A stretch of 64,000 nt of DNA. Origin: Verrucomicrobiales bacterium (lineage in GTDB: Bacteria > Verrucomicrobiota > Verrucomicrobiia > Verrucomicrobiales > DEV007). The stretch lies in assembly GCA_002698785.1 (NCBI GenBank), contig PAAG01000038.1, positions 124,001 through 188,000 of the forward strand, read 5' to 3'. The translations under genes were made by a program, and so were the position numbers. Shown here in pieces: positions 48,704-50,265 of the stretch (within the stretch, counting starts at the first letter, position 1; every line of letters begins with the position of its first letter). The notes below the pieces were generated by a model. That model was not told where the DNA came from. It saw only the letters and a list, made by a program, of their open reading frames with translations, and searched no databases.

Positions 48704-49369
48704 TCAGGGACTGAGGCGGGAAATGGACCACTCTCCTTCCGCCAGAGAATAGACAAAACGGTCGTGCTTGCGCCCTGGCTGGCCCTGCCAGAATTCTACG
48801 AGATTTGGAGAGAGGCAGTATCCTCCCCAAAAGTCGGGTAGTGGAACGCAGTCCTGTTCTCCTGTATCGGGAAACTTCTGTTCGAATTCTTCTACGCGGG
48901 TGCTGAGCCATTCTCGGTTTGGAATTGATTCGCTCTGCCTGGAGGCCCAGGCCCCAATTCGACTATCGTAAGGGCGAGAGTAGAAATAGCTTTCCGAGAC
49001 CTCGCGAGGCACCTTGGAAACGGTACCTTTTACCTGGACTTGCCTTTCCAGCTCCTTCCAAAAGAAGAGAAGCGAGGCATTCGGTGTGGTTTCCAACTCT
49101 TGAGCTTTCCGGCTCTCGTAGTTTGTGAAAAACGTTACTCCTCGTTCGTCGAAGTCTTTCATGAGAACAATTCGAGAGGTGGGTGACCCGTCGAGACCTA
49201 TGGTGCCAAGGGTCATGGCATTTGCTTCGCGGATTTCGGCTTCCCTCGCCTGCTTGAACCATTTTTCGAACTGGTCGAAGGGTGATTCTGAGAGATCAGT
49301 GCGGGATAGGCTCGACAGGCGGTATTCCTGACGAAGTTCGGCGATTTCAGGTTTTGAGAGGGAACTCAT
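48704..49369 (-). CDS. pdxH: pyridoxamine 5'-phosphate oxidase
   Basis: PdxH is the FMN enzyme that makes pyridoxal 5'-phosphate from the pyridoxine or pyridoxamine forms. The 221-residue protein has PTSRIVLMKDFDERGVTFFTN, SLLFFWKELERQVQVKG, the FMN/substrate segment SRPYDSRIGAWASRQS and the C-terminal WGGYCLSPNLVEFWQG, which covers the family signature. Length and start are standard. A MITE-like element begins 25 bases upstream of its ATG and may separate it from its ancestral promoter. Confidence 0.96.
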   Translation of the reverse strand: MSSLSKPEIAELRQEYRLSSLSRTDLSESPFDQFEKWFKQAREAEIREANAMTLGTIGLDGSPTSRIVLMKDFDERGVTFFTNYESRKAQELETTPNASLLFFWKELERQVQVKGTVSKVPREVSESYFYSRPYDSRIGAWASRQSESIPNREWLSTRVEEFEQKFPDTGEQDCVPLPDFWGGYCLSPNLVEFWQGQPGRKHDRFVYSLAEGEWSISRLSP

Positions 49370-49393
49370 GCTCTTTTCGGGGATTTGATTACT

Positions 49394-49616
49394 CTAGTGT
49401 GGTGTTAGCCAAGTTCGTCACATAATGAAAGTTTTGTTTTGGGAGCTCCAAAAGAGCGTCGCTACGCTCCGAATTGTCTGGGGAAACGCTGATCTTTGCC
49501 CGAAGTCTCTGCGTTCTTCGCTCGTCACGAATCCCGATTCGCTCCTCGCGAACGCCTTGCGATTCGGGAAAATCTCTCGCGTCTTCATGCAACAAACTTG
49601 GGTAACACCACACTAG
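49394..49616. mobile_element. 223-bp MITE-like element with 22-bp terminal inverted repeats
   Basis: The ends 49394-49415 and 49595-49616 are inverted copies identical at 21 of 22 positions (left begins CTAGTGTGGTGTTAG, right ends AACACCACACTAG). The interior holds further fold-back structures: palindrome GGAGCTCC (49442-49449), GAGCGT cgct ACGCTC (49454-49469), and an imperfect inverted pair CCCGATTCGC / GCGATTCGGG. The ends can be read as TA|GTGTGG...CCACAC|TA, as expected for TA-targeting IS630/Tc1-like elements. It codes for no credible protein, so it would need a transposase from elsewhere. Confidence 0.7.
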
Positions 49617-49686
49617 GGATAATTACGAAATTCTTTGTTCTGTCGCTTCAAATATTCGGTTGAATTGGGTATCGCTTCGTAGTCTG

Positions 49687-50265
49687 ATGGAACTGATGTC
49701 AGGTGAAAATGCCGAACTTTCCAGCCGATTGGACAAAATTCTGTTCGATCAGGCTAAAATCAGGGAGTGCATCGCTTCGATGGGGGCTGGCATTACGCAG
49801 GATTACCACGGCGAACCTTTGACTATCATTGTTGTTCTGCAGGGGGGTGCTCTTTTTATGGCAGACTTAATTCGGGAGATCCATCTGCCGCTCAGGATCG
49901 ATTCGATTTCCGTCGCAAGCTATCATGGTGGTACGAAGAGTTCCGGTGTGGTGACATTCTTACAGGACAAGTTGCCCGACATTGAGGGGCGGCACGTTCT
50001 CCTTGTTGATGATATCCTGGATACCGGAAGGACAATTTCCGCAATTGCTGAAAAGCTTCGTGAAGAAGGGAAGCCAAAGTCGCTCAAGATTGCCGTGCTT
50101 TTGAAGAAATCGATAGATCGAGCGGTGGTGGTTGATGCGGACTACTGGGGGTTTGAAGTCGGGAATGAATTCGTAGTGGGCTATGGTCTCGACTATCAGG
50201 GAGAATACCGGAATCTACCCGTGATCGGAGTGCTAAAAGAGGAATTTATCGCGAAAAATGGGTAG
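49687..50265 (+). CDS. hpt: hypoxanthine phosphoribosyltransferase
   Basis: A 192-residue purine salvage enzyme that converts hypoxanthine or guanine plus PRPP to IMP or GMP. The PRPP-binding motif is HVLLVDDILDTGRT, and the N-terminal LTIIVVLQGGALFMADLIRE and ISVASYHGGTKSSG complete the family pattern. The start is ATG 49687 or 49696; a TTG at 49660 lies farther upstream and has no ribosome binding site. It overlaps the next gene (moaD type) by 8 bases, so the two are translated from one message. Confidence 0.95.
   Translation: MELMSGENAELSSRLDKILFDQAKIRECIASMGAGITQDYHGEPLTIIVVLQGGALFMADLIREIHLPLRIDSISVASYHGGTKSSGVVTFLQDKLPDIEGRHVLLVDDILDTGRTISAIAEKLREEGKPKSLKIAVLLKKSIDRAVVVDADYWGFEVGNEFVVGYGLDYQGEYRNLPVIGVLKEEFIAKNG

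Follow-up and report, generated by a model that had tools for sequence, protein, structure and literature searches.

Bacterial miniature inverted-repeat elements, or ‘MITEs’, are small, most have terminal inverted repeats (TIRs) and TA termini, and their transcripts form long stem–loops (PMC2229807). The BOX and RUP repeats of pneumococcus have likewise been compared with insertion sequences (IS; PMC3049150). RUP, together with IS630-Spn1, is like the element described here in being short, in having IS630-like TIRs and a TA target, and in the strong fold of its transcript (PMC2229807, PMC3049150). As portrayed in those accounts, RUP is 107 bp long and tied to one IS, whereas the core reported here has several end types and occurs phylum-wide. 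The Correia, or NEMIS, elements of Neisseria also have TIRs with TA at the ends, and their RNA stem–loops are proposed to be cut by RNase III; the description given there mentions no core common to different end types (PMC2229807). BOX, from Streptococcus pneumoniae, is modular, folded and transcribed, with IS mobilisation in trans proposed (PMC3049150). In that account it is the inner modules of BOX that vary; in our elements the inner part, the core, stays constant and variation is at the ends. ERIC/IRU and CIR are short repeats of several genera with long stem–loop transcripts, and differ in that the same source describes no end exchange for them (PMC2229807). Verrucomicrobia are mentioned for short, GTAG-tagged REP palindromes (PMC3733652). 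REP/REPIN sequences (IS200-like RAYT) are 20–40 bp palindromes with a tetranucleotide tag and an accompanying RAYT gene, and our element differs from them in size and in its TIRs. Among the matches listed for open-licence papers (titles and abstract starts), there was no description of a single core combined with several types of end. The usual definition of a MITE rests on its ends, with the interior treated as filler. The new part of the present analysis, missed by the original prediction for this locus, is a folded core that is conserved and strand-biased and that turns up across the phylum joined to several different ends.

The element lies in the window (the whole stretch of DNA that was analysed, 64,000 nucleotides from a Verrucomicrobiales bacterium) at the position given in Table 1. 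Judged by sequence comparison, it is a non-autonomous insertion, a MITE, that encodes no protein. Its 22-bp ends (CTAGTGTGGTGTTAGCCAAGTT and CTAGTGTGGTGTTACCCAAGTT) are identical at 21 of 22 positions, an agreement reached by 0 of 20000 mononucleotide shuffles, and end complementarity continues to 35 nt at 83%. The site is between divergent pdxH-type and hpt-type genes. A coding role is ruled out, as open frames are not common to the copies, whose longest frames vary in both strand and frame; the two small ORFs of the window element match no Pfam family, and the one tried against NCBIfam matched no family there. The original prediction of a 223-bp non-coding element with near-perfect TIRs, between divergent pdxH and hpt, was right in size and coordinates, in its ends and in both of its neighbours.

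Table 1. Features of the element and its neighbourhood, in window positions
Feature	Position	Strand	Basis
Whole element, CTAG/CTAG ends; MITE with IS630-type ends	49394..49616	.	TIRs, copies, empty site
TIR, plus-strand side	49394..49415	+	end comparison and shuffles
TIR, minus-strand side	49595..49616	-	end comparison and shuffles
TA target duplication, first copy, inside CTAG	49395..49396	.	window sequence; TA rather than 4 bp argued from the G082 copies
TA target duplication, second copy, inside CTAG	49614..49615	.	window sequence; TA rather than 4 bp argued from the G082 copies
Conserved folded core, ~98 nt, models R1/R2	49485..49583	- (folded strand)	covariation, model searches, strand test
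Core tip hairpin GGAGCGAAT-CGGG-ATTCGTGAC, with tandem G-A step	49524..49545	-	fold and alignment
5' arm of terminal helix (TIR and ~10 nt inside)	49583..49614	-	consensus fold
3' arm of terminal helix	49396..49427	-	consensus fold
Second, less conserved hairpin region between core and 3' arm (approximate limits)	49434..49472	-	fold
Neighbouring pdxH-type gene (pyridoxamine 5'-phosphate oxidase)	48704..49369	-	PF01243, PF10590
Neighbouring hpt-type gene (phosphoribosyltransferase); start codon may be further in	49660..50265	+	PF00156

Comparison with the rest of the genome and with relatives identifies the element as an insertion present in many copies. In its own genome (7.0 Mb in 60 contigs), the element DNA has 8 matches in 7 loci, and three of these matches end at a contig edge, as is typical of repeats. 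A DNA search of 36 relatives, this genome included, found matches in 3; one of these (in G012) was rejected because its locus has no near end repeat and, by eye, it looks like a chance match inside a coding stretch. With up to 3 mismatches allowed, a scan of the genus (33 genomes) finds the 21-nt end in two, G000 and G001; with up to 2 allowed, a scan of the order (386 genomes) finds it in seven, G000, G001, G193, G082, G047, G084 and G172. The last of these is taken to be a chance match, its 3-kb locus having no second end. In a database of genome contigs the 22-nt end pattern had no match, and a 19-nt pattern matched two contigs of the Verrucomicrobiia MAG HKST-UBA34; one query against plasmid sequences, and one exact pattern against viral contigs, found no element.

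The empty site is the usual state of the locus. Of 29 hpt loci, each from a different genome, 25 have the pdxH–hpt pair, and these 25 include the window; at the remaining 4, pdxH is not within the locus. Measured between fixed codons, the gap between the two genes is 377 bp in the window, versus a median of 157 bp in 24 relatives (16 at 144–158 bp, six at 185–208, one at 274 and one at 1111), and 377 bp less 221 bp is 156 bp. In 16 of the relatives the gap falls short of the window's by the length of the element. The end pattern is found in the gap of 0 of the 24 scored relatives and, given the shorter gaps, the element-free locus is taken as the common condition. Classification as a MITE, and the expectation of further copies in this genome and its relatives and of an empty site in the latter, are thus borne out. 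A single-copy sequence conserved at this locus was to have pointed to a structured RNA instead; the element is neither, and a conserved single-strand fold is present nonetheless. Some atypical copies were also seen. A 32-bp remnant with CTAG on either side (L019, at ~1500; contig C44 of the same genome) has the left end fused to the last bases of the right end, and is probably an internal deletion of an element. A window-type copy that is cut off by the end of contig C79 of G001 (L014) has an insert of ~60–70 bp in the core hairpin region. In G084, from another family of the order, there is a 414-bp element (L084, 1501–1914) with ends close to the window type and no core match.

The end, GTGTGGTGTTAGCC, comes after TA, mostly inside CTAG, and TA is present at both ends in 7 of the 11 copies of this end type in which both ends can be read. 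Two G082 copies (L082 and L086) have the outer bases CTAG...CTAA and TTAG...CTAG, which fit duplication of TA and not of 4 bp; the TA reading is therefore favoured, and a 4-bp CTAG duplication is disfavoured. The flanks of these two copies partly repeat one another in inverse order, and if an exchange of flanks is assumed, one copy still misfits 4 bp. When 384 genomes of the class were scanned for the pattern, 3 (G000, G554 and G415) had such ends. The one in G415, which belongs to another family of the class, is a complete 1175-bp IS630 (L129) with 3 of 21 mismatches at each end and CTAG on both sides; its 364-aa transposase matches the IS630 family (NF033545, E 9.9e-81) and DDE_3. Tenzen and Ohtsubo are said to have described, in 1991, a preference of IS630 for TA in CTAG. 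With L129 as a query, this transposase subfamily is found in 15 of the 74 family genomes, and a general IS630 model matches in 45 of them. The L129 subfamily was not found in the element's own genome, an incomplete MAG of 60 contigs, where the general model gave a 46-residue fragment on contig C50 (the 4 kb around it contain no matching end) and a cross-match to an IS481-like protein, and nothing else; the mobilising enzyme is therefore either missing from the assembly or lost. ISY100, of the IS630 family, duplicates TA (PMC2170065). The proposal of an IS630-like, TA-targeting source is thus supported by L129 and the TA duplication inside CTAG, and a transposase of this type with near-identical ends exists in G415, though not in the element's own genome.

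Other sources were considered and set aside. An IS481 source was prompted by the CTAG flanks and the TG...CA ends, and was rejected on the evidence of 30 IS481-like loci, none above the family cut-off: when up to 3 mismatches are allowed, none matches the first 16 nt of the end, and with 4 allowed two isolated sites do. The best IS481-like copy in the element's own genome carries other ends; on contig C46 of that genome (L020), an IS481-like element near the contig start has repeated ends of the GTGTTACCTATG type. Two further candidates were not used as proof: a 33-aa frame beside a matching end in L083, which resembles an IS630 N-terminus and matches no family, and a decayed IS630 in G187 (L110), whose left end has 6 of 21 mismatches. 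Four MITEs of 182–212 bp in G554 (L130, L131, L133 and L134) have window-like ends and an interior with no match to the core model; G554 also has cores, in an element with other ends.

As RNA, the 223 nt fold at -82.4 kcal/mol on the plus strand (z -5.6) and at -97.8 kcal/mol on the minus strand (z -8.9), so that the fold-backs first noticed by inspection go well beyond shuffles. We aligned 12 window-type copies from four genomes (G000, G001, G193 and G082), all found via DNA similarity or ends rather than structure; full copies from different genomes are 49–67% identical. The RNAalifold consensus has 64 pairs, with changes on both sides in 34 of these and, within the core, in 18 of 32. Controls have such changes in 22 pairs (shuffles) or in 6–12 (slid structures), and paired cells amount to 93.6%, versus 78.6% in the shuffles and 38–43% in the slid controls. 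For example, two genomes have GAAT/ATTC as the stem of the tip hairpin, where the remaining two have TGAG/CTCA. The consensus energy is -69.1, versus -30.4 for the reverse complement; since the latter folds far less well, comparison of the strands places the fold on one of them, the minus strand of the window. G.T pairs outnumber A.C pairs by 38 to 8 over the predicted pairs used, and by 10 to 6 when the count is confined to pairs that both orientations predict, in this set found without a model; the second excess is small, and this count alone is weak.

A second alignment, A5, comprises 41 of 51 model matches, copies that have other ends; it leaves out four window-type copies, L170, L213, L215 and three G076 copies (L208, L210 and the first match of L209). 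The same hairpin is seen, with both-side changes in 29 of 31 pairs and an energy of -42.8 versus -24.0 for the reverse complement; because these copies were found with the covariance model, and so are enriched for the fold, counts on A5 lean towards it. Two symmetrical internal loops, 5'-GA/5'-GA, are kept in 30 of the 41 copies (the loop beside the tip hairpin, which is invariant in the 12 window-type copies) and in 37, and are fully Watson–Crick in 0; a third is GA/GA in 20 and Watson–Crick in 11. Tandem G–A pairs are typical of folded RNA, and are stable in DNA too. On the opposite strand, the G–A steps would become T–C mismatches. Rfam has no match to window positions 49000–50000 at E up to 1, or to 13 other loci at E up to 0.1.

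Two covariance models were used to trace the core: R1, of the inner 98 nt, and R2, a wider model made from 51 matches. At E up to 1e-3, R1 matches in at least 37 of the 74 family genomes and in at least 11 of 18 genera, with up to at least 51 matches in a single genome. At E up to 1e-5, R2 matches in at least 25 genomes of a sample of 387 from the phylum and in at least 17 of 198 genera; these genomes belong to several families in the order, in the class and beyond it. The E-values of both models are rough, and the counts are lower bounds because the best 55 (R1) or the best 10 (R2) candidates per genome were scored. In the window, R2 finds this element only.

Elsewhere, the core lies in the middle of elements that are mostly 200–230 bp long and have quite different ends. 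Of the 48 family matches examined, four of which are window-end-type copies already used in model building, 42 have an end repeat that beats all ten of their shuffled-flank controls. (The 48 are the 51 less L213 and L215, which are the same places as L176 and L184, and less L170, a second copy of equal score in the genome of L216.) No end repeat was found in 5 of the 48, L216, L180, L195 and L203, which are cut by contig ends, and L176, which is not; in L184 the end repeat merely ties with a control. In the phylum sample, 22 of 31 matches at 28 loci have an end repeat above eight controls each, and 9 of 31, several in family f78, do not; the search covered 28 of 30 loci, two in the window's own genome being omitted, and three two-core elements are counted twice. 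The f78 loci (L223, L226, L231, L234 and L235) have core-like hairpins with no clear end repeats, and may be either decayed copies or repeats of another kind. The two-core elements, in G802, G849 and G554 (L228, L229 and L240), are ~270 bp long and hold two opposed cores within one pair of ends.

In the window's own genome, too, one core goes with many ends. There are at least 18 R1 matches in this genome, of which we examined the 16 that are clear and placeable, plus one weak match (L003), and these 17 copies have six end types. Six copies have the window type, three each have TAGACCGTTTCTCAAAAG and TAGAACCTATCCCAAAACC, two each have TAGCAGCCTGTTGAAAAA and CTAGGGTGTGTTCGAAAA, and one has TAGAAGCCATCTCATAAATA; types were grouped by eye, and four of the 17 copies are cut at a contig end, so that one end is visible. 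The window end has 3–8 of 18 bases in common with the other types. Types F, H and I have 11 of 18 in common pairwise, and E and I have 10, so some end types may be diverged relatives. Recurrence of the folded core with different ends suggests that the middle part, rather than the ends, is what these elements keep.

Several of the other ends match those of particular IS (mismatches to the type consensus at the two ends are given in brackets). The TAGTGTAGTCCGTC type matches the IS630 loci L093 (2 and 4 of 24) and L094 (6 and 3 of 24), the TAGACCGTTTCTC type matches the IS630 locus L100 (6 and 1 of 21), and the related TAGACCCTTTGCC type matches the IS630 locus L104 (4 and 4 of 21). Ends of the CAGCCTGTTGAAAAA type match a 1159-bp IS in L083 (3 and 4 of 19), the broken transposase of which has IS1182 as its best match (NF033551; its two parts score E 1.3e-26 and 7.4e-6, under the curated cut-off in each case; PF05598 and PF13751 pass theirs). 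As the same core occurs with IS630 ends of other types and with IS1182-like ends, it is the core that appears to be the stable part.

One copy may record how ends are exchanged. L003, on contig C58 of the window's own genome, begins with the left 77 nt of the TAGAACCTATCCC type (95%), continues with the right part of the window type (92% over 165 columns), and finishes with a right end of the TAGAACCTATCCC type (93%). Its first two segments overlap by ~20 nt inside the core, and the junction must therefore lie there. By alignment, then, L003 is recombinant, and has the structure that nesting followed by core-to-core recombination would leave: a putative fossil of end exchange, seen in one MAG contig, with a weak core match of 20 bits.

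Little in the surroundings of the cores suggests an action on neighbouring genes. At 52 loci of at least 1700 bases, with simple ORF picking, 27 copies lie between two near ORFs, 13 have an ORF near on one side only, 5 are far from any, and 7 are inside a long ORF. Among the 27, 13 lie between convergent ORFs and 4 between divergent ones, and the remainder divide 5 versus 5 by strand; co-directional cases in the window's own genome divide 2 versus 4. This lack of strand preference speaks against a strand-specific effect on neighbours, and we reject gene regulation by strand on this ground. A scan of the element for sigma-70 and terminator consensus found no site, and with these strand counts (2 versus 4; 5 versus 5) the proposal that its hairpins insulate the pdxH and hpt promoters is not supported. 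Since context gives neighbour regulation such scant backing, the fold, in our view, probably serves the element itself.

The explanation that we prefer, and think probable, is that the element belongs to a MITE superfamily, with IS630-type and other ends, that is united by a single-strand-folding core and exchanges its ends. An IS630 transposase supplied in trans would cut the element out and paste it into TA, mostly in CTAG. The core, single-stranded (the minus strand of the window), would fold into a long hairpin with tandem G–A pairs. Ends would be swapped, as a general route, most likely when elements nest and two cores recombine. RNA is the likeliest form in which the core works, and single-stranded DNA a possible one; strand bias and the conserved non-canonical pairs favour RNA made by read-through, which would serve the element and not the neighbouring gene. 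A bolder version, which we hold tentatively and would put somewhat short of an even chance, is that the small folded RNA (or single-stranded DNA) core is the unit of inheritance, a satellite of many unrelated transposases that captures new ends, by core-to-core recombination of nested elements, when an old partner dies out, and whose superfamily, spread through the Verrucomicrobiota, would be split into many unrelated families by end-based MITE surveys. What stays the same in these elements is the sequence motif and fold of the interior; what changes, from one transposase system to another, is the ends. If this is true, it provides a testable reason why some tiny non-coding elements survive their partner transposases, and a structured nucleic acid that is conserved but matches nothing in Rfam. 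Repeats now classed as separate MITE families in this phylum may then belong to a single one.

Of the alternatives, the strongest, unlikely as we judge it, is that the core acts as single-stranded DNA, e.g. as a lagging-strand hairpin recognised by a host protein or primase, and aids copying or target choice. It differs from the preferred explanation in the last step only, and the chances of the two overlap. The stability of tandem G–A pairs in DNA agrees with it, as does the lack of strand preference relative to genes, which is expected if transcription is irrelevant. Against it, the transposases of IS630 and IS1182 are regarded as acting on double-stranded DNA. The in vitro results for ISY100, as given in the source cited, fit cut-and-paste (PMC2170065).

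Two more explanations dispense with selection on the fold, and both seem improbable, to about the same degree. One is that the element is an ordinary IS630 deletion derivative, the interior of which is junk that is palindromic by chance, with selection on the ends only. In its favour are the element's size, its TIRs, the TA duplication and an IS630 whose ends are nearly identical, and also the G554 MITEs, which combine such ends with another interior; against it are compensatory changes across genera and the presence of the same core within other end types. An interior that is a remnant of the matching IS is typical of MITEs, though not obligatory; here the core is absent from L129 and, more widely, from all 23 loci checked for it (17 IS loci, L129 included, and 6 others), and so is not a leftover of the DNA of those IS. 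The other is that the complementarity of the arms comes from a DNA-level process. Imperfect palindromes are known to be corrected by template switching, or by gene conversion between their arms, and this would yield changes on both sides without selection for a fold. Such a process treats both strands alike, whereas one strand has a consensus fold about twice as strong as the other's, and it sits poorly with the retention of non-Watson–Crick G–A steps in 37 and 30 of the 41 copies.

That the element serves pdxH and hpt as a regulatory RNA of the host, or as an insulator, as its strong fold and its site between divergent genes near their starts might suggest, we consider very improbable, since its end pattern is at the locus in 0 of 24 scored relatives, its copies are at unrelated loci, and no consensus promoter or terminator was found. 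Just outside the element (window 49617–49635) there is a TACGA motif that is conserved in 13 of the 16 pdxH–hpt gaps aligned, those of 15 of the 24 relatives and of the window. The motif may belong to the pdxH promoter, and if it does, the element would sit in the pdxH leader.
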